DNA of 64,000 bases from an uncultured Methylophaga sp. (GTDB taxonomy: Bacteria; Pseudomonadota; Gammaproteobacteria; Nitrosococcales; Methylophagaceae): assembly GCF_947259025.1 (NCBI RefSeq), contig NZ_CAMYKO010000001.1, forward strand, positions 124,001 to 188,000. The letters are read 5' to 3'. A model generated the notes under the pieces. The model worked only from the letters and a program-made list of their open reading frames with translations. It ran no database searches and was not told the DNA's origin. Positions 8,102 through 64,000 of this stretch are shown piece after piece (position 1 is the stretch's first letter; every line of letters starts with the position of its first letter). Both the position numbers and the translations under genes were made by a program.

Positions 8102-9139
8102 CTATCGGAATAGATCTTTGTTCACAGCGCGCGGCAAGGCTTCATTCTTGGTGACCTGTTGACGTCTGACCATATCCTGCAGGCATTGATCCAGCGTCTG
8201 CATGCCCACGGCCCCCCCGGTCTGAATCGCCGAGTACATCTGTGGCACCTTGTCTTCGCGGATGAGATTACGAATCGCGGGCGTACCTATCATAATTTCG
8301 TGAGCAGCGATTCGGCCACCACCGACTTTTTTCATCAGGGTTTGCGATATCACCGCGCGTAAAGACTCAGACAACATGGACCGCACCATGTCTTTTTCAG
8401 CAGCCGGGAACACGTCGATAATCCGGTCGATGGTTTTAGCCGCCGAAGAGGTATGCAGGGTGCCGAATACCAGGTGACCGGTTTCCGCCGCTGTCAGAGC
8501 GAGTCGAATCGTTTCCAGATCACGCAGCTCACCCACCAGGATAATATCCGGATCCTCACGCAGCGCACTGCGTAAGGCTTCGCTGAAACCCAGCGTATCG
8601 CGGTGGACTTCACGCTGGTTAACCAGACATTTCTTGCTCTGGTGCACAAACTCGATGGGATCCTCAATGGTCAGGATATGCTCATTGTCTTTTTCATTGA
8701 GGTAATTGATCATCGCCGCCAGTGTGGTGGACTTACCGGAACCGGTGGGACCGGTGACCAGCACGATACCGCGGTGATTATCGGCAATGGCACGGAATAT
8801 ATCCGGTGCCCCCAGATCTTCAAGTGTCAGCACCTCGGACGGGATGGTCCTGAATACCGCTGCCGCCCCCCGGTTCTGGTTGAAGGCGTTGACACGAAAG
8901 CGTGCCATGTTGGGCACTTCAAATGAGAAGTCAGCCTCAAGGAACTCTTCGTAGTCCTTGCGCTGCTTGTCATTCATGATGTCATACACCATGGCATGGA
9001 CTTCTTTGTGTTCCATGGGCGGCAGGTTGATACGCTTCACATCGCCGTCAACGCGGATCATTGGTGGTTCGCCTGCAGAGACGTGTAAATCGGAAGCCTT
9101 GTTCTTGACACTGAAGGCGAGCAATTCAGTAATATCCAT
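8102..9139 (-). CDS. pilT: Type IV pilus twitching motility ATPase PilT
   Basis: PilT (345 aa, standard length) powers pilus retraction. Seen in the sequence are Walker A GPTGSGKSTT (Lys136), the Asp box EDPIEFVHQ, Walker B GELRDLETI, and FGTLHTSSA (His box). It is divergent from yggS with about 90 bases between start codons. pilT-pilU next to yggS-proC-yggT is a classic gammaproteobacterial arrangement. Confidence 0.96.
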   Translation of the reverse strand: MDITELLAFSVKNKASDLHVSAGEPPMIRVDGDVKRINLPPMEHKEVHAMVYDIMNDKQRKDYEEFLEADFSFEVPNMARFRVNAFNQNRGAAAVFRTIPSEVLTLEDLGAPDIFRAIADNHRGIVLVTGPTGSGKSTTLAAMINYLNEKDNEHILTIEDPIEFVHQSKKCLVNQREVHRDTLGFSEALRSALREDPDIILVGELRDLETIRLALTAAETGHLVFGTLHTSSAAKTIDRIIDVFPAAEKDMVRSMLSESLRAVISQTLMKKVGGGRIAAHEIMIGTPAIRNLIREDKVPQMYSAIQTGGAVGMQTLDQCLQDMVRRQQVTKNEALPRAVNKDLFR

Positions 9140-9229
9140 CCACGTTCCTTTTACTGATTTGGTGTAATGTGTGCTTTTTAAAAATATTCGAATGCCTATA
9201 AAGTAGCGCGCTCACCACGGGCTTGCAAC

Positions 9230-9928
9230 ATGACTGAGATAAAAAACAGATTCAACTTCATCCAGCAGGCTATCCACGAAGCCGCAAAGCAGTCAGGACG
9301 TGCCCCTGACAGCATCCGCTTACTGGCCGTCAGCAAGACTTGGCCCGCCGATAAACTAAGGCAAATGGCCGTCCTGGGACAAGCTTGCTTTGGTGAAAAT
9401 TACCTGCAGGAAGCGCTGGAAAAAATCGAGGCGCTGGCCGATCTGGAACTGGAATGGCATTTCATCGGCCCGATACAGTCCAACAAAACCCGAGACATTG
9501 CCGCGCATTTTGACTGGGCGCAGAGTATCGACCGCTTTAAAATCGCCCGCCGGCTTGACCAGCAACGAACCGATGAGCAAGCGCCGCTGAATATCTGCAT
9601 ACAGGTCAATATCGACAATGAGGACAGCAAGTCCGGTGTCAATGCTGATGAGGTGCTGTCGCTGGCTGAACAAATTGTTCAACTGGACAAGCTCCAACTG
9701 CGGGGCCTGATGGTCATCCCCTCACGCCAGACCGATGAAGCCGCCCAGCGAGCGAGCTTCCGCCGCGCCCATCACCTGTTTCAACAGTTACAACATCAAT
9801 ACCCTCAAGTGGATACACTGTCTATGGGTATGACCGCTGATTTAAGCGCAGCCATTGCCGAGGGTAGCACCATGGTGCGCATCGGCACTGCCCTGTTTGG
9901 GCAGCGTGATACAAGTCAGCGCCAATAA
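9230..9928 (+). CDS. yggS: PLP homeostasis protein (YggS/PLPBP family)
   Basis: This 232-aa alanine-racemase-fold protein binds pyridoxal phosphate through Lys36 in LLAVSKTWP. It helps keep free PLP and amino-acid pools balanced; it has no known enzymatic reaction. Family blocks FGENYLQEA, WHFIGPIQSNKT, LRGLMVIPS and LSMGMTADLSAAI are all present. It is the first gene of a rightward yggS-proC-yggT group. Confidence 0.94.
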   Translation: MTEIKNRFNFIQQAIHEAAKQSGRAPDSIRLLAVSKTWPADKLRQMAVLGQACFGENYLQEALEKIEALADLELEWHFIGPIQSNKTRDIAAHFDWAQSIDRFKIARRLDQQRTDEQAPLNICIQVNIDNEDSKSGVNADEVLSLAEQIVQLDKLQLRGLMVIPSRQTDEAAQRASFRRAHHLFQQLQHQYPQVDTLSMGMTADLSAAIAEGSTMVRIGTALFGQRDTSQRQ

Positions 9929-9972
9929 GCTTTACACTGAAAGCAACACACATCGCTAACAAAGGTTATTTA

Positions 9973-10806
9973 ATGAAAGACTGTACGCTTGCTTTTATCG
10001 GTGCCGGCAATATGGCCCGCAGCCTGATTGGCGGACTGGTCAATAACGGCTTCCCGGCTCAGTCCATCCATGTGGCTGACCACAACACCGAAGCCCTGCA
10101 AAGCCTGACCGCACTGTATCCGGTGCAGACCTTCACTGACAACAATGCCGCTATCGCCGATGCCGATGTCGTGGTATTGGCCGTCAAACCCCAGCAATTA
10201 CAGAAAGTGGTGCGTGATATAGCAGCCAACTGGCATCGCGCTAAACTGATGGTCTCGATTGCCGCTGGGATTCGTCTGGATGATATTGGCCGCTGGCTGG
10301 GCTTCGAGAATGCCGCCATTGTCCGTGCCATGCCCAACACCCCCTCTTTGGTTCAGGCTGGCGCTACTGCGCTGTGTGGCAATGCGCAGGTGACCAACGA
10401 GCAACATGAACTGGCAGAATCGATTTTACGCGCCGTGGGCCTGGCTCTGTGGGTTAAAGATGAACAGCAGATGGATGCCGTGACCGCCCTTTCCGGCAGT
10501 GGTCCCGCCTACTTTTTCCTGGTAATCGAAGCCATGCAGAGTGCCGGGATGGAACTCGGCCTGCCGGAAGACACTGCCCGGCTGCTGGCGCTGGAAACCG
10601 CCTTCGGTGCTGCCAAGATGGCGCTGGAAAGTAATGAGTCGGCCTGTGTATTACGTCAGCGGGTAACCTCACCGGGGGGCACGACTGAACGGGCGCTGGA
10701 AGAGTTTGAACAGGGCGACCTGCGTGGCCTGTTCAACAAAGCACTGGAAGCGGCAGCCGGCCGGGCTGCTGAACTCGCAGATCAACTGGGACAGGATTAT
10801 GACTAA
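9973..10806 (+). CDS. proC: Pyrroline-5-carboxylate reductase
   Basis: ProC (277 aa) carries out the last step of proline synthesis, reducing pyrroline-5-carboxylate with NAD(P)H. The Rossmann motif IGAGNMARSLIGG is at residues 9-21, and the signature segment ALSGSGPAYFF is followed by the C-terminal dimerisation domain with VTSPGGTTERAL. An AAAGG lies just upstream of the ATG. The 3' end overlaps yggT by 8 bases. Confidence 0.96.
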   Translation: MKDCTLAFIGAGNMARSLIGGLVNNGFPAQSIHVADHNTEALQSLTALYPVQTFTDNNAAIADADVVVLAVKPQQLQKVVRDIAANWHRAKLMVSIAAGIRLDDIGRWLGFENAAIVRAMPNTPSLVQAGATALCGNAQVTNEQHELAESILRAVGLALWVKDEQQMDAVTALSGSGPAYFFLVIEAMQSAGMELGLPEDTARLLALETAFGAAKMALESNESACVLRQRVTSPGGTTERALEEFEQGDLRGLFNKALEAAAGRAAELADQLGQDYD

Positions 10807-11365
10807 CGGATATTTTGCCAACCCGCTGATTTTCATCGTTGAGACCTTATTTTATCTCTACATGGTCGTTGTGGCACTGAGGCTGGTGATGCAGTGGGCC
10901 AACTGGGACTATCACAACCCGCTGGCTCAGTTCATCATCAAAGCTACTCAGGTACCGGTTAAATTTCTGCGCCAATTCATTCCGGCGATGGGACGCTGGG
11001 ATAGTGCCACCATCGTGCTGCTGATTGGTGTCACACTACTCAAACTACTGATAGTAGGCCTGATTGCCGGCGCATTGCCCGGCGGCCTGATGTGGCTGAA
11101 GCTGATCGCGGCCGAAATCTTTTCTTTATTTATCAGCATCTATACGGTCAGCATCATTGTTGAGGTCATCCTCAGCTGGGTGACCCCGGCGGGCAGTTAT
11201 AATCCGGTCGCACCGCTGGTCTACCGAATGAATGCCCCGCTGTTGCGGCCGGTGCGAAATACCATTCCACCACTGGGTGGCATCGACCTCTCACCATTGT
11301 TTGTTTTGCTGGGCCTGCAGGTTCTGTCGATGCTGGTGATGCCGCTTTTGCTGGGGCGTGTCTGA
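10799..11365 (+). CDS. yggT: YggT family integral membrane protein
   Basis: This 188-aa protein has two YGGT domains, each with paired hydrophobic segments (about residues 8-32 and 65-90, then 100-125 and 155-185). Family members are implicated in osmotic tolerance or membrane protein assembly; the exact role is unknown. ATG 10799 lies inside the proC stop region and gives a normal N-terminus (MTNGYFANPL). The longer open frame upstream is proC read in another frame. Confidence 0.9.
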   Translation: MTNGYFANPLIFIVETLFYLYMVVVALRLVMQWANWDYHNPLAQFIIKATQVPVKFLRQFIPAMGRWDSATIVLLIGVTLLKLLIVGLIAGALPGGLMWLKLIAAEIFSLFISIYTVSIIVEVILSWVTPAGSYNPVAPLVYRMNAPLLRPVRNTIPPLGGIDLSPLFVLLGLQVLSMLVMPLLLGRV

Positions 11366-11409
11366 ACGCCCGGCAATAGAGATTCGCGACTCGCTGACAG
11401 CCGCTGATC

Positions 11410-11437
11410 CGCAATGCCAAGCTATGCCGGCATTGCG
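11410..11437 (+). other. Hairpin between yggT and metX
   Basis: A 9-bp perfect inverted repeat (CGCAATGCC with GGCATTGCG) encloses 10 bases, 45 bases after yggT and 53 bases before metX. No T-tract follows, so it is not a standard terminator. It could be an mRNA processing or leader structure. I could not match it to a known SAM riboswitch. Confidence 0.4.
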
Positions 11438-11490
11438 CTCAGCCCGCGCTCTGATTAGACTTAACGCTTTTTCAAAGGAATCAACCGTTT

Positions 11491-12639
11491 ATGCCGGAGA
11501 CGATACCAGCCGACTCTGTTGGCCTGGTCAATCCCACCACCTTGCATATTGATACGCCGCTGGAGTTGGACTGCGGTCGTACGCTGGCGAGCTACGATCT
11601 GGTTTATGAGACCTATGGCGAACTCAATGCCGATCACAGCAACGCCGTACTCATCTGCCATGCCCTGTCCGGCGATCATCATGCCGCGGGCTACCATTCC
11701 ATGGAGGATCGCAAGCCCGGCTGGTGGGAAACCGCAATCGGTCCCGGCAAAGCGATTGATACCAACCGTTTCTTTGTGGTCAGCGTCAACAACCTGGGCG
11801 GCTGTAAAGGTTCGACCGGCCCCAATACGGTGAATCCTGAAACCGGCAAACTGTTTGGCCCTGATTTTCCTATTGTCACAGTGCCCGACTGGATCCGCAG
11901 TCAGGCAGTGCTGGCCGATAAGCTGGGCATTGAGATCTGGGCGGCGGTGATAGGTGGCAGCCTGGGCGGTATGCAGGCCCTGCAGTGGGCCATCAGCCTG
12001 CCCGAGCGGGTTCGTCATGCCGTCGTCATCGCTGCAGCGCCCAAACTGTCAGCCCAGAATATTGCCTTTAACGAAGTAGCGCGCACCGCCATCAAGTCGG
12101 ATCCTGACTTTCATGACGGCCACTATATGGAGCTTAATACCCTGCCCAGACAAGGGCTGGGCCTGGCGCGTATGCTCGGTCATATTACCTATCTGTCTGA
12201 CGAGGCGATGGGTCAGAAATTCGGCCGTGAACTGCGTAGTGGCAGTATCCAGTACGGCTATGATGTGGAATTCCAAATCGAGAGTTACCTGCGCTATCAG
12301 AGCACCAGCTTTGTCGGCCGCTTTGACGCCAACACTTATCTCTTAATGACCAAGGCGCTTGATTACTTCGATCCGGCCAAGGAGTTTGATGACGATCTGA
12401 CGGCCACCTTGTCAGGCATCAAAGCCAAATCATTGGTGGTTTCCTTTACCAGTGACTGGCGCTTTTCACCGCTACGGTCGCGCGAAATCGTCAATGCACT
12501 GCTGGCTGCCGGCAAACCGGTGACTTATGCCGAAATTGAAGCCCATCAGGGGCACGATGCCTTCCTAATGCCGATTCCGCGTTATCTGGAAATCTTTGCA
12601 ACCTACATGCAGAGCGTCGCTGAGGAGGTGGGCTCATGA
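11491..12639 (+). CDS. metX: Homoserine O-acyltransferase MetX
   Basis: MetX (382 aa) acylates homoserine in the methionine pathway. It has the alpha/beta-hydrolase fold with nucleophile Ser157 in [13 protein letters not shown], the acid in SDWRFSP and the catalytic His in QGHDAFL. Gammaproteobacterial MetX enzymes coupled to MetW may use succinyl-CoA rather than acetyl-CoA; the sequence alone does not settle this for me. It overlaps metW by four bases (ATGA). Confidence 0.94.
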
Positions 12640-55118: not shown

Positions 55119-55194
55119 GGCTCGATAGCTCAGTTGGTAGAGCAAGGGATTGAAAATCCCTGTGTCCCTGGTTCGATTCCAGGTCGAGCCACCA
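55119..55194 (+). tRNA. tRNA-Phe (anticodon GAA)
   Basis: The cloverleaf is complete: acceptor GGCTCGA with TCGAGCC, anticodon loop TTGAAAA giving GAA, T-loop TTCGATT, discriminator A and an encoded CCA (55192-55194). A strong terminator follows after 10 bases, so the gene is monocistronic. Confidence 0.96.
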
Positions 55195-55204
55195 CGAACA
55201 TCAA

Positions 55205-55237
55205 AGCCCCGTCAGTTTTACTGGCGGGGCTTTTTTG
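55205..55237 (+). terminator. Rho-independent terminator of tRNA-Phe
   Basis: A 10-bp stem (GCCCCGTCAG with CTGGCGGGGC, one G-T pair) has a TTTTA loop and ends in TTTTTTG. Confidence 0.9.
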
Positions 55238-55255
55238 TTTCCGGTGTTCAGATAC

Positions 55256-55544
55256 TAACCACAGAGGCACAGAGGACACGGAGGTTTTTTGGGTTATCCG
55301 CAGATTGCACAGATTTTCGCGGATAAAAACATATCCCAGCGCTTGTAGCGCTTATACAGACACCTCTGCTTTAGGCGTTTTTTGCTTCATGTGGTGAAAA
55401 CAACCAAAAAAAACGCGGTGGCGTAAAAGTCTCGACCGTGCAAGTCAAAGCCAAGTTATTAATGATTCCCACTAATCTGTGTCCATCTGCGTAATCTGTG
55501 GATGAACCTAAACCGCCTCTGTGCCCTCCGTGCCTCTGTGGTTC
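55256..55544. repeat. Inverted-repeat unit 2 (non-coding), nested palindrome
   Basis: Outer arms are TAACCACAGAGGCACAGAGG (left, continuing to 55284) and its inverse ending CTGTGGTT (right, 55515-55543). Inside them is a second inverted pair: ATCCGCAGATTGCACAGAT at 55296 onward, and the complement of ATCCACAGATTACGCAGAT ending at 55503. The interior has no credible gene. GATAC occurs just outside both ends (55251-55255 and 55545-55549) and could be a target duplication. Bases 55550-55731 are the porin leader, AT-rich, with nothing else recognised. Confidence 0.75.
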
Positions 55545-55731
55545 GATACACTTTCTGTATGACCTTTGTGGTAAAAAAAACACAAATTTGTGAAATTTTT
55601 GTCATTTCCTGATTTTTTGTTGTAAAAGTGTTGCATTGCATTTTTTTCTGTGCAAAATAGCTAACAACCGCGATTCAATCCGGTTGCGAGAGAAATTAAA
55701 GTAATCTGTTAACAATAGAAGGTGAAACAGA

Positions 55732-56895: not shown

Positions 56896-56919
56896 TAGAG
56901 TACTTAAACACTTAAGCAA

Positions 56920-56933
56920 CAACCTTCGGGTTG
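56920..56933 (+). other. Small UUCG hairpin after the porin gene
   Basis: CAACC-TTCG-GGTTG forms a stable tetraloop 25 bases after the porin stop, in front of the main terminator. Such tandem hairpins often protect the 3' end of abundant mRNAs. Confidence 0.5.
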
Positions 56934-56946
56934 ATGCTGAAGAAAA

Positions 56947-56983
56947 TAAAAAGCCTCAACCTTCGGGTTGGGGCTTTTTTTTT
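56947..56983 (+). terminator. Rho-independent terminator of the porin gene
   Basis: GCCTCAACC-TTCG-GGTTGGGGC is a 9-bp stem with a TTCG tetraloop, preceded by A's and followed by nine T. The tetraloop core is the same as in the hairpin just upstream. Confidence 0.92.
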
Positions 56984-56994
56984 GAAATTTCAAT

Positions 56995-57201
56995 AACCAC
57001 AGAGGCACAGAGGTCACGGAGATTCTTTGGGCTGAACGACTGAGGCTTGTCATTGGCGAACACCCTCTTCTGACTGGCGATCCTCGCTTTTTATATAACC
57101 TTATCCAAGGAAGAAAATATTCGACTCGCTTGAGATATCCAACTGCCATCATTATCACTGGGAAGTTTCTTTTCTCTGTGCACTCTGTGCCTCTGTGGTT
57201 C
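56995..57201. repeat. Inverted-repeat unit 3 (non-coding), between porin and dhaL
   Basis: The left arm 56995-57022 begins AACCACAGAGGCACAGAGG and the right arm 57174-57201 is its inverse ending CTGTGGTT. About 150 bases between them hold no gene I recognise. The unit begins 12 bases after the porin terminator and ends 3 bases before the -35 of the dhaL promoter. Flanks are TCAAT/TCATT, not an exact duplication. Confidence 0.75.
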
Positions 57202-57260: not shown

Positions 57261-57890
57261 ATGAGTATCAGCCCCCAATCCATTCCCGCCTTCCTGGAAG
57301 CCATCAGTCAAGACATTGAAGCCAATGCCGAGGAAGTCACGGCACTGGATCAGGCGATTGGCGATGGTGACCATGTGACCAATTTACAACGTGGCTTGGC
57401 GGCTTTGCAGGAGCAGTCCGCTGAGTTAAGTGAAATGAACTGGTCAGCAGCGCTGATGAAAATCGGGATGACGCTGATGTCGACGATGGGCGGGGCTTCC
57501 GGTTCTCTCTATGGCAGCCTGTTTATGGCGATGGGTAAAAAAGCCAAAGAGACTGAAGTGAATAAAGAAAGTTTTGCCGCTGCTTTCCGGGCTGGTGTTG
57601 AGTCGGTGAAAGCACGGGGTAAAGCCGATCTCGGTGAAAAAACCATGCTGGATACCTTAATCCCGGCAGTAGAGAGTCTGGAACAGAACAACGCTAGCGA
57701 CTTGCCTGCTCAGTTGGATGCCCTCAAAAAAGCGGCTTACGACGGTATGTTGTCGACGAAGGACATGCTGGCAACCAAGGGCCGGGCTTCGTTTCTAGGC
57801 GAACGGGCACGCGGCCATATCGATGCCGGGGCACGCACCAGCCAATTAATGATTTGTGCAGTGGCTGAGGTGCTTCAGGAAACCGAATAA
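57261..57890 (+). CDS. dhaL: Dihydroxyacetone kinase subunit DhaL
   Basis: DhaL (209 aa) is the nucleotide-binding subunit of dihydroxyacetone kinase. The Mg-nucleotide ligands Asp30, Asp35 and Asp37 are in ALDQAIGDGDHVTNLQRG, and GGASGSLYGSLFMAM is the glycine-rich loop. It phosphorylates DHA together with DhaK. No phosphotransferase DhaM is in the window, so the phosphate donor is open. The gene converges on dhaK, with a repeat-flanked cassette inserted between the two. Confidence 0.92.
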   Translation: MSISPQSIPAFLEAISQDIEANAEEVTALDQAIGDGDHVTNLQRGLAALQEQSAELSEMNWSAALMKIGMTLMSTMGGASGSLYGSLFMAMGKKAKETEVNKESFAAAFRAGVESVKARGKADLGEKTMLDTLIPAVESLEQNNASDLPAQLDALKKAAYDGMLSTKDMLATKGRASFLGERARGHIDAGARTSQLMICAVAEVLQETE

Positions 57891-57894
57891 ATAT

Positions 57895-58371
57895 AACCAC
57901 AGAGGCACAGAGGACACAGAGTCTTAAGTTAGTTATTGAGCATTCTGACAATGCCCTGTCGCATTACTGACACATTGAAGTTGAGCAAAAGACCATATCT
58001 TAGTTTGGCTAATTTCAGATAGCTGAGTAACTGCGCTTTATGAACCGCGATTATGGCATCCACTGTTTTCAATTCAATGATGACAGTGCTCTCAACCAGT
58101 AAGTCACAACGGTAAAATGAATTGAGTCGTTTGCCTTTGTAGACGATAGGGAGTGGATGCTGACTGTCTAAGGCCAGCCCTCTTTGCCTTAACTCCTCAA
58201 TAAGGCATTCTTCGTATACGGCCTCCAAAAGGCCCGGCCCTAGCTCCCTGCGCACATCAATCGCTGTGCCAATAATCGAACGCGTTATCGAATTGCTCAT
58301 ACCTCCTCCTTGAGGTTACAAGTTCATGATCCTGCCTAATTTTTCTCTGTGCTCTCTGTGCTTCTGTGGTT
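57895..58371. mobile_element. Inverted-repeat unit 4: cassette carrying a GxxExxY gene
   Basis: The 477-bp unit has terminal inverted repeats of about 27 bases: left AACCACAGAGGCACAGAGG (57895-57922) and right the inverse ending CTGTGGTT (58344-58371). It is flanked by AATAT on both sides (57890-57894 and 58372-58376), a perfect 5-base duplication. It holds a single gene, 57929-58300 on the minus strand. Without the unit and one AATAT, the dhaL and dhaK stop codons would be 3 bases apart. No known transposase is encoded. Confidence 0.75.
57929..58300 (-). CDS. GxxExxY family protein (PDDEXK-like)
   Basis: This 123-aa protein has the family signature GPGLLEAVYEECLIEEL (G-x-x-E-x-x-Y). It also shows PD-(D/E)xK-like residues: YRCDLLVESTVIIELKTV, where Asp and Glu-x-Lys could form a nuclease centre. 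IHKAQLLSYLKL follows, as in the family (here VHKAQLLSYLKLAK). Its job is unknown; nuclease activity is inferred only from the fold family. It is the sole gene of the repeat-bounded cassette and has a leftward promoter probably within it. Confidence 0.85.
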   Translation of the reverse strand: MSNSITRSIIGTAIDVRRELGPGLLEAVYEECLIEELRQRGLALDSQHPLPIVYKGKRLNSFYRCDLLVESTVIIELKTVDAIIAVHKAQLLSYLKLAKLRYGLLLNFNVSVMRQGIVRMLNN

Positions 58372-58375
58372 AATA

Positions 58376-59365
58376 TCAATATCCCCAGCGAAGTGCAGCG
58401 GTATGAACCGGCGCATCCCAGTACTGAATCATTTCCTGATCCAGCTTGGTCACGGTGACAGAACATCCAGCCATATCTAATGAGGTGGTGAAATTGCCTA
58501 CCAAAGAGCGTTCCACCTCAACGCCGCGTTCGCTGAAGTATTGAGAAGCCAGGTCATACACCAGGTAAAGCTCCATCAGGGGCGTCGCACCAAAGCCATT
58601 CACATGCAGCAGGATTTTTTCGCCTTTGCCCGGAAACAGTTCTTTATCTATCGCAGCAACCAGGTGATCCACCATGTCACTGGCACTACTCAGATCCATC
58701 GGTTCACGACCACGCTCACCGTGAATACCCACTCCCATTTCCACTTCGTTTTCACCAATATCAAAAGTCGGTTTACCCAAAGCCGGCACGGTGCAACTGC
58801 TCAAAGCCACGCCCATTGAAGCGGTGGCATTGGCAACTTTGTCACCCAGGGCTTTACAGCTAGCCAGATCAGCCCCGGCCTCGGCAGCGGCGCCGACAAT
58901 TTTTTCTACAATCAGCGTACCTGCCACACCGCGACGACCGGTTGAGTGGTCTTTGGGGAGAGACACATCGTCGCTAACCAGGACCGTATCATGCGGGCAG
59001 TCGAGCATTTCTGCAGCGATTTCAAAATTCATCACATCACCGGCGTAATTCTTGACGATAAACAACACACCGGCGCCGTTTTCAGCCTGCTGGGCTGCCA
59101 TCATCATCTGGTCGGGTGTAGGAGAGGTGAAGATCTGTCCGGGACAGGCGGCGTCCAGCATGCCTCTGCCTACCAGACCGGTATGCAGCGGTTCATGGCC
59201 TGAGCCACCGCCGGAGATCAAGGCAACTTTAGGTGAGTCTGCAGCTATGTTGCGAGTCACAAAGTGAGGCTGGTGATTGAGGGTAATAATATCTTTATGT
59301 GCCTTGGCAAAGCCTTTCAGACTCTCTTCCAATACACTTTCAACGCCGTTGATCATCTTTTTCAT
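58376..59365 (-). CDS. dhaK: Dihydroxyacetone kinase subunit DhaK
   Basis: DhaK (329 aa) binds dihydroxyacetone covalently through a histidine, here His215 in GVGIHGERG, and works with DhaL. ISGGGSGHEPLHTG is the phosphate-binding N-terminal motif. In a RuMP methylotroph it would channel DHA into triose phosphates. It is convergent with dhaL. The HAD phosphatase gene lies 15 bases upstream on the same strand. Confidence 0.93.
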   Translation of the reverse strand: MKKMINGVESVLEESLKGFAKAHKDIITLNHQPHFVTRNIAADSPKVALISGGGSGHEPLHTGLVGRGMLDAACPGQIFTSPTPDQMMMAAQQAENGAGVLFIVKNYAGDVMNFEIAAEMLDCPHDTVLVSDDVSLPKDHSTGRRGVAGTLIVEKIVGAAAEAGADLASCKALGDKVANATASMGVALSSCTVPALGKPTFDIGENEVEMGVGIHGERGREPMDLSSASDMVDHLVAAIDKELFPGKGEKILLHVNGFGATPLMELYLVYDLASQYFSERGVEVERSLVGNFTTSLDMAGCSVTVTKLDQEMIQYWDAPVHTAALRWGY

Positions 59366-60484: not shown

Positions 60485-61126
60485 ATGGCAAAAGCACTTA
60501 TTCAAATGGCACTGGATTCACTGGATTTCGATCAAACTATCGCACTTGCTGAGCAAGTTGCCCCTTACGTTGACATCCTGGAAGTGGGTACCCCTTGCAT
60601 CAAGTACAACGGTCTGGAAATTGTTACTGCACTGAAAAACAAATTCCCTAACAACCTGGTTCTGGTTGACCTGAAAACAATGGACGCTGGCGAATACGAA
60701 GCGACCCCATTCTATGAAGCAGGTGCTGACATTTGTACTGTTCTGGGTGTATCTGATAAAGCGACCATGGGCGGCGTCATCAAAGCTGCCAATGCTAACA
60801 ACTCAGAAGCGCAGATCGACCTGATCAGCGTTAAAGACAAAAAAGCAGTTGCGACTGAAGCAGCTCGCAACGGTGCGCAAATCATCGGTGTTCACACTGG
60901 TCTGGACGCACAAGCAGCCGGTCAAACACCTTTCGCTGACCTGCAAGAAATCGCTGGTCTGAACTTGGGTGTTCGTATCTCTGTTGCCGGTGGTCTCAAC
61001 AAAGACACCATCCAAGACACCGTTCGCGCTGGCGCAACCATCGTTGTTGTGGGTGCAGCAATCTATGGTGCTGACTCACCTGCAGAATCTGCTAAAGAAC
61101 TGCGTGCACTGGTTGACGCAGCCTAA
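60485..61126 (+). CDS. hxlA: 3-hexulose-6-phosphate synthase, copy 1
   Basis: HPS (213 aa) joins formaldehyde to ribulose-5-phosphate, the key step of the RuMP cycle. It is a TIM-barrel of the OMP decarboxylase family. The conserved metal-binding block is VLVDLKTMDAGEYEA, with VGTPCIKYNG and IGVHTGLDAQAAGQTPF. Codon use is strongly biased. Copy 2 at 63026 is about 75% identical in protein. It is followed directly by a terminator, and AGGAGCATG gives a strong ribosome site before the ATG. Confidence 0.96.
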   Translation: MAKALIQMALDSLDFDQTIALAEQVAPYVDILEVGTPCIKYNGLEIVTALKNKFPNNLVLVDLKTMDAGEYEATPFYEAGADICTVLGVSDKATMGGVIKAANANNSEAQIDLISVKDKKAVATEAARNGAQIIGVHTGLDAQAAGQTPFADLQEIAGLNLGVRISVAGGLNKDTIQDTVRAGATIVVVGAAIYGADSPAESAKELRALVDAA

Positions 61127-61159
61127 GCGGAAACCCAATTTGCACTGAGCAAAGAAAAG

Positions 61160-61189
61160 ACGAGTGGCCATTGGCCGCTCGTTTTTTTT
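61160..61189 (+). terminator. Rho-independent terminator of hps1
   Basis: A 10-bp stem (ACGAGTGGCC with GGCCGCTCGT) with a 3-base loop is followed by eight T. It lies 34 bases after the hps1 stop. Confidence 0.92.
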
Positions 61190-61436: not shown

Positions 61437-61730
61437 ATGAATGAAAATAAAGGTTTACTTGCTTCGATTTGTGGCTTTTTTAAAGGCCTGTTCTCTTCAA
61501 GCCCGGCTGCTGACAACAAACCAGCCGCTGCCAATGATGGCCTGACGGGTGTTGAACGTTACATCAGAAACCAGGCACAGGGTGGCGCCCAGTTGACCGG
61601 TGTAGAACAGTACATCAGAAATCAGGTTAGCAGTAACACGCCTGTAACTGGTGTAGAACAGTATGTTCGTAGCCAGTCTCAATCGAAACCAATGACGGGT
61701 GTTGAACGTTACATTCAAAATAAAGGCTAA
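61437..61730 (+). CDS. Small protein with four TGVE(R/Q)Y repeats
   Basis: I do not recognise this 97-aa protein. It has an N-terminal amphipathic or hydrophobic helix (GLLASICGFFKGLF, residues 6-19), a flexible Ala/Asn/Pro linker, then four repeats starting at Thr37, Thr54, Thr71 and Thr87: TGVERYIRNQ, TGVEQYIRNQ, TGVEQYVRSQ and TGVERYIQNK. The period is 17, 17 and 16 residues. The DNA also repeats (ACGGGTGTTGAACGTTACAT). It lies in the RuMP cluster between hps1 and transaldolase. A GGGG ribosome site precedes the ATG. Confidence 0.75.
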   Translation: MNENKGLLASICGFFKGLFSSSPAADNKPAAANDGLTGVERYIRNQAQGGAQLTGVEQYIRNQVSSNTPVTGVEQYVRSQSQSKPMTGVERYIQNKG

Positions 61731-61870: not shown

Positions 61871-62860
61871 ATGGCAAATTTACTTGATCAGCTTAAGGAA
61901 ATGACCGTTGTTGTTGCTGATACCGGTGATATTGAAGCAATCAAGAAATACACCCCGCGCGATGCGACAACTAATCCATCACTGATTACTGCCGCCGCGC
62001 AGATGCCTCAGTATCAAGGTATCGTTGACGATACTCTGGAAGCAGCGCGTGAAAGCCTGGGTTCAGATGCACCGGCATCTGAAGTTGTTTCGCTGGCTTT
62101 TGATCGTCTGGCTGTGTCTTTCGGTCTGAAAATCCTAGACATCATTCCAGGCCGCGTTTCTACTGAAGTTGACGCACGTCTGTCATACGACACTGAAGCG
62201 ACCATCGCTAAGGGTCGTGACCTGATCGCCCAATACGAAGCGGCCGGTGTGGATCGTAACCGCATCCTGATCAAAATCGCTTCAACCTGGGAAGGTATTC
62301 AGGCCGCTGCCGTTCTGGAAAAAGAAGGCATCCACTGTAACCTGACTCTGCTGTTCGGTCTGCACCAAGCCATCGCTTGTGCGGAAAACGGCATTACCCT
62401 GATTTCTCCATTCGTAGGTCGTATCCTGGACTGGTACAAGAAAGACACCGGTCGTGACTCTTACGAATCACATGAAGATCCGGGTGTACTGTCAGTGACT
62501 GCTGTTTACGAGTATTATAAGAAGTTCGGATACAACACCGAAGTCATGGGCGCTAGCTTCCGTAACATGGGTGAAATCACCGAACTGGCCGGCGTTGACC
62601 TGCTGACCATTTCACCTAAGCTGCTGGAAGAGCTGCAAAACAGCGAAGGCACACTGGAACGTAAACTGTCTCCGGAAATCTCTGCCAAGTCTGACATCGA
62701 AAAAATCTCGATGGACAAAGATACTTTCGAGAAAATGCATGCCGAGAACCCAATGGCACAGGAAAAACTGAGCGAAGGTATCGACGGTTTTGCCAAAGCG
62801 CTGGAAACATTGGAAGAATTGCTTGCTGATCGTCTGGCAAGCCTGGAAAGCGTCGCTTAA
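61871..62860 (+). CDS. tal: Transaldolase (TalB type)
   Basis: Transaldolase (329 aa) moves dihydroxyacetone units between sugar phosphates in the regeneration phase of the RuMP cycle. The Schiff-base lysine is Lys135 in [12 protein letters not shown], with Asp20 (ADTGD) and TTNPSLI near the N-terminus. The C-terminal half follows TalB closely. ATG 61871 is used; an upstream in-frame ATG at 61808 lacks support. Codon bias is strong. A T-poor hairpin follows. Confidence 0.96.
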
Positions 62861-63025: not shown

Positions 63026-63661
63026 ATGGCTGAAATCCAAATGGCACTCGACTCACTGGACTTCGACGCAACTATGGCACTGGCTGAGCAAGTCGCGCCT
63101 TACGTCGATATCCTGGAAATTGGTACACCATGCATCAAGTACAACGGTCTGAAACTGGTTAAAGCCCTGAAAGCGGCTCACCCAGACAAGAAGATCCTGG
63201 TTGACCTGAAAACTATGGATGCGGGTGAATACGAAGCCTCTCCTTTCTTCGAAGCGGGTGGTGACATCACTACCGTTCTGGGTGCTTCTGATATGGCGAC
63301 CATCAAAGGCGTTATCAAAGCAGCCAACGCTAACAACGCAGAAGCTCAAATCGACCTGATCGGTGTTGAAGATAAAACTGCCGTTGCTAAAGAAGCAGCT
63401 CAAAACGGTGCACACATCATCGGTGTTCACACTGGTCTGGACGCACAAGCAGCTGGCCAAACTCCATTCGAAGACCTGAAAACCATCACTGGTCTGGGTA
63501 TGGACGTTAAAGTTTCTGTTGCCGGTGGTATCAACAAAGACACCATCCAAAGCTGTGTACAAGCTGGTGCAGCAATCGTTGTTGTTGGTGCTGCTATCTA
63601 CGGTGCGCCTTCTCCAGCAGACTCTGCTAAAGAACTGCGTGCACTGGTTGACGCAGCCTAA
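63026..63661 (+). CDS. hxlA: 3-hexulose-6-phosphate synthase, copy 2
   Basis: This second HPS (211 aa) has the same catalytic block ILVDLKTMDAGEYEA and the same C-terminal SAKELRALVDAA as copy 1. It is the one followed directly by the phosphohexuloisomerase gene, 17 bases downstream, so hps2-phi is the canonical RuMP operon. AGGAG lies upstream of the ATG. The last 42 bases (63623-63664, including three bases after the stop) are identical to copy 1. Confidence 0.96.
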   Translation: MAEIQMALDSLDFDATMALAEQVAPYVDILEIGTPCIKYNGLKLVKALKAAHPDKKILVDLKTMDAGEYEASPFFEAGGDITTVLGASDMATIKGVIKAANANNAEAQIDLIGVEDKTAVAKEAAQNGAHIIGVHTGLDAQAAGQTPFEDLKTITGLGMDVKVSVAGGINKDTIQSCVQAGAAIVVVGAAIYGAPSPADSAKELRALVDAA

Positions 63662-63678: not shown

Positions 63679-64000
63679 ATGCATCGAGATCTACTCTTAA
63701 ATAAAATCACCGATATCCTCGGCGCGACTGATGAATCACTTGAAGCCACACTGGTTTCCATGTGTGATTCAGCCAAACGTATCTTCATTACAGGTGCGGG
63801 TCGCTCCAGGCTGGTAGGTAACTTCTTAGGCATGAGATTGATGCATAGTGGTTATGAAACCTATGTTCAAGGTGAAGTTGCGACACCAAGCATCCGTGAG
63901 GGCGATCTGCTGATCGTTATCTCCGGCTCTGGTGAAACAACCCAGCTTGTTTCATTTGCCAATAAAGCCAAGTCTGAAGGCGCGAACGTCGTGCTGATCT
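63679..64000 (+). CDS. hxlB: 6-phospho-3-hexuloisomerase, 5' part
   Basis: The first 107 codons of a SIS-domain isomerase are present; the gene runs off the right edge. It converts hexulose-6-phosphate to fructose-6-phosphate. The N-terminal helix MHRDLLLNKI and the sugar-phosphate loops ITGAGRSRLVGNFLGMRL and IVISGSGETTQLV are typical of PHI. GAGAGGA lies 8 bases before the ATG, and the gene directly follows hps2. Confidence 0.93.
   Translation, partial: MHRDLLLNKITDILGATDESLEATLVSMCDSAKRIFITGAGRSRLVGNFLGMRLMHSGYETYVQGEVATPSIREGDLLIVISGSGETTQLVSFANKAKSEGANVVLI

Follow-up and report, generated by a model that had tools for sequence, protein, structure and literature searches.

The window, i.e. 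the whole 64,000-nucleotide stretch analyzed here from a genome of 2.7 Mb, ends in a RuMP cluster whose Pfam assignments comprise HUMPS, TAL_FSA, DAK1 and DAK2. The gene under study, its motifs and its neighbors are located as follows (basis of each assignment in parentheses):

60485..61126, + strand: hps1, 3-hexulose-6-phosphate synthase (PF00215; TIGR03128 above cut-off)
61153..61189, + strand: hairpin resembling a terminator, 3' of hps1 and 5' of the repeat gene (RNA folding: -24.3 kcal/mol, z -7.7)
61437..61730, + strand: TGVE-repeat protein of 97 aa, the finding reported here (ORF list, homologues, alignment, shuffles)
61449..61499, + strand: hydrophobic N-terminal segment, residues 5-21, KGLLASICGFFKGLFSS (hydrophobicity, moment, invariant columns)
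61545..61574, + strand: motif 1, TGVERYIRNQ (motif regex, alignment)
61596..61625, + strand: motif 2, TGVEQYIRNQ (motif regex, alignment)
61647..61676, + strand: motif 3, TGVEQYVRSQ (motif regex, alignment)
61695..61724, + strand: motif 4, TGVERYIQNK (motif regex, alignment)
61874..62860, + strand: transaldolase, tal (PF00923)
63026..63661, + strand: hps2 (PF00215, TIGR03128)
63679..64000, + strand: phi, 6-phospho-3-hexuloisomerase, cut by the window end (ORF; same position in relatives)

The initial annotation had described a 97-aa ORF between hps1 and transaldolase, and its coordinates, length and neighbors were all correct. The hairpin, which carries a T-run directly 3' of hps1, is strong and makes simple co-transcription of the repeat gene with hps1 improbable; it is absent from the list of a consensus terminator scanner. 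Adjoining the cluster, DAK2 (57261-57890, +) and DAK1 (58376-59365, -) are separate genes on opposite strands, a split arrangement that is seen again in Methylophagaceae and Methylococcales loci. Similar intergenic ORF translations (HRGTEDTE, TTEAQRAQR) at window positions ~55150-55600, 56900-57200 and 57930-58470 suggest a dispersed repeat that adjoins a 123-aa protein at 57929-58300.

The TGVE[RQ]Y motifs of the 97-aa protein start at residues 37, 54, 71 and 87. Their number is thus four, as had been noted, but the spacing is 17, 17 and 16 residues instead of the uniform 17 initially given. In 100,000 shuffles of the protein at least two motifs never occurred and a single motif occurred three times, which rules out a chance origin of the repeats. 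The comparison with two relatives (dN/dS 0.115/0.916 and 0.123/1.057, i.e. ~0.12) documents that the repeat protein is under purifying selection. Elsewhere in the window, the pattern [TS][GSA]V..Y[LIVM] has no match in any of the six frames. The pattern search of the own genome returned 13 matches, namely, four in the repeat gene, four in a ChpA-type kinase and five isolated ones (L014-L018), compared with 11 for the control patterns. A separate search pattern, restricted to AAR/AGR codons, misses the window's own motifs. The N-terminus had been described as hydrophobic or amphipathic, and residues ~5-21 are indeed hydrophobic and weakly amphipathic on the Eisenberg scale (over 16 residues, the mean reaches 0.53 and the moment 0.38). 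This segment forms a helix, at low confidence, in an AlphaFold model of HPS with the repeat protein of a relative, and residues 5-21 are a probable membrane-associating helix.

The small repeat protein is widely distributed in the Methylophagaceae. A single-sequence search of the family gave matches at E 1 or less in 51 of the 57 genomes, ChpA matches included, and a 30-row profile (E 0.001 or less) matched 52 of the 63 genomes of the order, i.e. 52 of 57 Methylophagaceae and none of the six genomes of the order's other family. According to our own counts, which consider only short-frame matches and disregard a contaminant in G011, the small protein is present in 45 of the 48 family genomes with HPS and in none of the nine without an HPS match; eight of these nine are incomplete (seven at 69-88%, one at 89%), so that missing contigs may explain part of its absence. 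The three HPS genomes without the small protein are G046, which is 55% complete, G055, whose contig stops just after hps (L335), and G011, where HPS is partial. The disregarded G011 hit is located on a 3-kb contig (C210, L336) that exhibits the methanotroph-type order tkt-repeat-tal-fba inside a Methylophagaceae bin and is probably contamination.

The gene order hps-repeat-tal is conserved in all 29 loci from three genera that represent the best matches besides the window's own. In a scan of named genomes, the repeat gene has tal directly downstream in all 31 loci and hps upstream in 30, the remaining locus beginning at the gene itself. These 31 loci (21 titled Methylophaga, two Methylophagaceae bins and eight unclassified, the latter comprising seven Gammaproteobacteria and one Pseudomonadota) probably overlap in species with the 29-locus set. 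A minimal version of 59 aa with two repeats is located between phi and tal in G056 (L138). Across 30 aligned rows, the window's own included, the N-terminal columns G6, C12, F14 and L18 are invariant, and so is T-x-V-E-x-Y in each repeat. Alignment A4 excludes eight repeat-only rows that were misaligned in A3.

The motif, in the form [LV]T[GS]V[AE][KR]Y[LI]xxQ, recurs in two more protein types within the RuMP operons of Methylococcales methanotrophs. The TM type has a signal peptide, a transmembrane helix and mostly three to five motifs on the predicted cytoplasmic side, and the many-repeat type is mostly 200-540 aa long with usually 7-22 motifs. The class-wide profile search revealed a single further case with motifs outside the Methylophagaceae, G309, taken here as a member of the Methylococcales. 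It encodes a 458-aa protein with 15-16 motifs twice and, in addition, a 223-aa protein that carries four; the gene order is hps-phi-tkt-repeat twice, followed by hps-phi-tkt-TM repeat protein-tal-fba. A search with the 458-aa protein matched 176 of 251 Methylococcales genomes at E 1e-4 or less. We inspected 70 of these loci (the 30 top-scoring and 40 chosen for diversity, with two genomes represented twice), and 63 of them contain RuMP genes within 6 kb (TKT in 59, HPS in 37, PHI in 34, TAL in 33 and FBA in 24 loci). In the remaining seven, the available stretch leaves under 500 bases on one flank of the repeat gene; the other flank measures just ~1.5 kb in six of them and 6.8 kb, free of RuMP genes, in L181. 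Wherever tal is present (33 of 33 loci among L141-L210), a repeat gene is the next recognized gene upstream on the same strand.

Twenty chosen genomes, several with more than one locus, revealed RuMP genes in 26 of 29 loci. Eleven of these genomes belong to the Methylomagnum family, and in nine of them the TM-type gene is located directly upstream of hps-phi; of the two exceptions, G197 has no match and G495 carries its motif protein elsewhere. Motif proteins without a visible RuMP gene are found in L289, L290 and L291 (Methylococcaceae, 16-kb stretches) and in L130 (G309, 9-kb stretch). The protein in L130 (3481-4374, -; 298 aa) combines TGV motifs with a Cys/His stretch (CHATTSRGKRC...CPQH) at its C-terminus. 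L290, together with L098, represents the Methylomagnum ishizawai plasmid NZ_AP019784.1, where a 129-aa TGV-repeat protein adjoins a SulP transporter a few kb from monooxygenase genes annotated as amoB/amoC. In L289, from a Methylococcaceae-family genome, the motif protein is adjoined by an 844-aa protein with DUF937 and collagen-like repeats (9111-11642, +). A TM repeat gene copy in L293 (2675-3381, -) spans two frames and looks frameshifted; the genome is Methylococcus-like and its RuMP cluster is duplicated.

The restriction of the repeat to HPS-bearing genomes is apparent in a class-wide sample, in which TIGR03128 identified HPS in six of 369 genomes. The repeat is present in five of these six and in none of the 363 HPS-less genomes (Fisher p 1e-10), a p-value that overstates the evidence because four of the five positives belong to the window's family and only two independent lineages are represented. 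A general gammaproteobacterial motif is thereby ruled out for this sample; a profile match in G090 contained no motif and was dropped before the count. When the class was searched with the 458-aa protein of methanotrophs, just G309 and G022 were recovered, and G000, G050 and G028 escaped detection, which indicates that this query misses Methylophagaceae and is less sensitive than the profile. The sixth HPS genome, G197, encodes an HPS-PHI fusion and has no repeat match at E 0.01, and no repeat gene is near either of the two natural fusion loci examined (L256, L257), as expected if scaffold and fusion serve the same job. The search for TGVE[RQ]Y[IV]-repeat relatives and their gene neighbors that the initial annotation had proposed thus documents a real tie to RuMP genes that is specific and present in both lineages, within the Methylophagaceae, Methylococcales and class-wide genomes sampled. 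The family members are located beside RuMP-cycle genes, with the exceptions of L130 and L289-L291. In the available genomes, the homologues do not show the distribution that had been named as a refutation, namely, a majority in non-methylotrophs at a distance from sugar phosphate genes. The genomic link between the TGV-repeat family and the RuMP cycle is well supported, and the family exceeds the size initially assumed.

Altogether, 1,328 motifs were collected from 170 proteins (43 small, 4 ChpA, 48 TM and 75 many-repeat) with the regex [TS][GSAKR]V..[YF][LIVMT], in which the T/S, V and Y/F positions and the final hydrophobic one are fixed. Repeated matches to this pattern characterize the TGV-repeat family, usually with Lys/Arg before the Tyr and often with Gln four residues past it; at this position 9, which lies outside the regex, Gln occurs in 63% of the small, 62% of the many-repeat, 54% of the ChpA and 32% of the TM motifs. 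The commonest spacing is 16-17 residues in the small and 20 residues in the many-repeat type. As helices, the motifs are amphipathic (moment 0.45-0.63), and in the HPS+repeat model a helix starts, at low confidence, right after the motif Thr in four of four motifs.

All 43 small proteins have an N-terminus that exceeds the repeats in hydrophobicity, but only 40 of 74 many-repeat proteins do, so that an anchor is not general for the latter type. The TM set was picked by a hydrophobic run or YPA/YPP, and its anchor statistics are therefore partly selected: 47 of 48 proteins carry a predicted periplasmic YPxxFxPxV motif, and among these 47 the N-terminus is hydrophobic in 46, a TM helix separates YPxxFxPxV from the repeats in all, and positive charge is higher on the repeat side in 46. 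Each of them (L128:19048-19716 and 46 similar proteins) has one to three YPxxFxPxV motifs as possible binding sites for a partner in the periplasm. The membrane attachment that had been suggested for the window's protein gains from these methanotroph relatives, for which a signal peptide, one TM helix and cytoplasmic-side motifs are predicted.

Two AlphaFold read-through models addressed the binding of partners. The enzymes were mostly well folded both in HPS+repeat and in repeat+HPS+PHI, with a motif pLDDT of ~51-62 and ~36-45, respectively, and neither model docked the motifs on monomeric HPS or PHI. The proposal that the protein tethers RuMP enzymes gains from the genomic tie, but docking on HPS or PHI is unsupported by these models, which cover monomers; binding sites may form on the oligomers. 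The best Pfam match of the 97-aa protein (PF12411) scored 15.2 bits against a cut-off of 27, NCBIfam gave no match, and the many-repeat, TM and 298-aa proteins of methanotrophs have no Pfam or NCBIfam match above cut-off. A sequence search of the PDB yielded no match covering the repeats. The initial annotation knew of no description of such a protein, and our literature search, in which most subscription papers were out of reach, likewise found none for the repeat proteins or the motif. In their accessible parts, two accounts of RuMP genes in Methylococcus enumerate the enzymes encoded near tal, and no repeat protein is mentioned there (PMC8527097, PMC517821).

The best reading of the repeat protein, and in our judgment a somewhat probable one, is that of a multivalent scaffold attached to the membrane on which RuMP enzymes dock. 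The N-terminal hydrophobic helix of the small protein would sit on the cytoplasmic membrane and a flexible chain would display four copies of a short helical motif, in which the Thr may cap the helix while Val, Tyr and Ile/Leu form its sticky face. We infer that the motif binds protein and that each copy would engage a single partner molecule, most likely one of the RuMP-cycle enzymes encoded alongside, whereby formaldehyde would be fixed near its site of production at the membrane. Methanotrophs would fill the same role with a true transmembrane version and a long many-repeat version. The membrane topology and the motif helices of this scheme are predicted. Several observations weaken the scaffold reading, namely, the lack of docking in the AlphaFold read-through models (monomeric HPS; HPS + PHI), the motif proteins of L289-L291 and L130 without a visible RuMP gene, the HPS genome G197 without a repeat match, the strong terminator-like hairpin that sets the gene apart from hps1 and the many-repeat N-termini, which are not generally anchor-like (40/74). 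The presence of the motif in the ChpA of the same family also weakens it, hinting at a partner other than a RuMP enzyme.

This kinase, 2,004 aa in length and composed of Hpt, HATPase, CheW and REC domains, is the only other protein with repeated motifs found in the window's genome. It is encoded in a pil-chp-like cluster, where its gene adjoins REC, CheW and MCP genes. A ChpA-type kinase with six TGVxxY[LI] motifs is located at G000:C4, L135:3790-9801 (+). All four Methylophagaceae ChpA sequences that were read contain four to six motifs, and none occurs in six ChpA from other families (five full-length, one partial); most simply, this would reflect a gain of the motif by ChpA within the methylotroph family or in an ancestor of it. 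Such a distribution would not be expected of a pure enzyme tether and is the main reason to keep the principal rival, a signaling link in which the motif docks a signaling or polar hub protein. The small protein and ChpA would then have a common partner in Methylophagaceae, and the former would compete for the pil-chp chemosensory system or recruit it to where C1 metabolism takes place, so that surface motility would be coupled to C1 flux. In favor are also 30 of the 57 family genomes, in which profile matches are located in frames of at least 700 aa (only the four sequences were read as ChpA), and five HPS-less genomes, all 69-89% complete, that keep long-frame matches and not the small protein. 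We nevertheless consider the signaling link unlikely, given that no shared partner gene was identified, that the Methylococcales motif proteins are found mostly at RuMP genes and that the ChpA-core matches listed in 18 Methylococcales genomes are frames of 689-1,187 aa, with one of 1,584 aa and no giant ChpA.

Two further explanations were considered. In the first, the motif helices would associate with the membrane or among themselves, not with an enzyme, and would form or label a membrane zone, such as the intracytoplasmic membranes of methanotrophs, with RuMP genes nearby only for matched expression. The amphipathic character of the helices, the predicted membrane anchors and the many-repeat proteins without a clear anchor would fit such a membrane organizer, but it appears decidedly unlikely: we know of no intracytoplasmic membranes in Methylophagaceae, which carry the family all the same, the motifs also occur in a ChpA linker, and the invariant Thr, Val, Glu and Tyr would seem to exceed the needs of lipid binding. 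The position of the gene directly before tal (31/31 loci of the named scan, 33/33 in Methylococcales) rather evokes an assembly or regulatory factor that would assist transaldolase or transketolase like a chaperone, or inhibit it, and would influence activity and not location. This explanation is very improbable, since the TM-type gene precedes hps-phi in nine of 11 Methylococcaceae-family genomes, tal is not seen or lies on the opposite strand in L295-L297, and up to 22 repeats are hard to square with a simple inhibitor.

The docking scaffold can be extended to a dedicated formaldehyde membrane metabolon in gammaproteobacterial methylotrophs, an interpretation covering both lineages and the uptake of the motif by ChpA that we regard as quite unlikely as a whole. 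In methanotrophs, a one-pass protein would hold periplasmic methanol oxidation via its YPxxFxPxVxYxD motifs and gather HPS, PHI, transketolase and transaldolase on its cytoplasmic TGVxKYL repeats. The small membrane-bound version of Methylophagaceae would perform the cytoplasmic half, and the pil-chp kinase may have taken up the docking motif to sense C1 flux and steer surface motility.

The leak-free transfer of toxic formaldehyde to cytoplasmic fixation in RuMP bacteria is, in our view, an open problem. The HPS of Methylococcus capsulatus was reportedly found by Ferenci, Strom and Quayle in 1974 to be largely particulate and released by high salt, an observation for which the candidate scaffold may account. 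A native and widely conserved candidate in model methanotrophs makes the question of formaldehyde transfer directly testable. MDH-HPS-PHI fusion enzymes have been engineered to bring the steps together, as described in the accessible part of PMC8879981. The motif common to ChpA hints, in addition, at a link between C1 metabolism and motility.

Among known systems, CsoS2, the scaffold of the carboxysome, resembles the repeat protein in its disordered chain, its short repeated motifs and a gene beside an enzyme of one-carbon fixation. The differences are the absence of a Pfam match at the curated cut-off, the hydrophobic or TM anchor found instead, and the identified gene neighbors, which are hps, tal, dak and HAD. 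A carboxysome-like scaffold by descent is not supported, because there is no family match and no shell gene among the identified neighbors. EPYC1, the Rubisco linker of algal pyrenoids, is similar by description only, in that regularly spaced short helical motifs could bind one enzyme repeatedly, whereas the repeat proteins reported here are bacterial, have a spacing of 16-17 or 20 residues and are predicted to be membrane-anchored. The ChpA of the pil-chp system carries the same motif four to six times in four Methylophagaceae sequences, but it belongs to the histidine kinases and contains Hpt, CheW and REC domains, and the six ChpA from other families are devoid of the motif. Natural HPS-PHI fusions, although covalent, without repeats and, in the two fusion genes, without a repeat gene nearby, are comparable to the proposed scaffold in that they hold two steps of formaldehyde fixation together.
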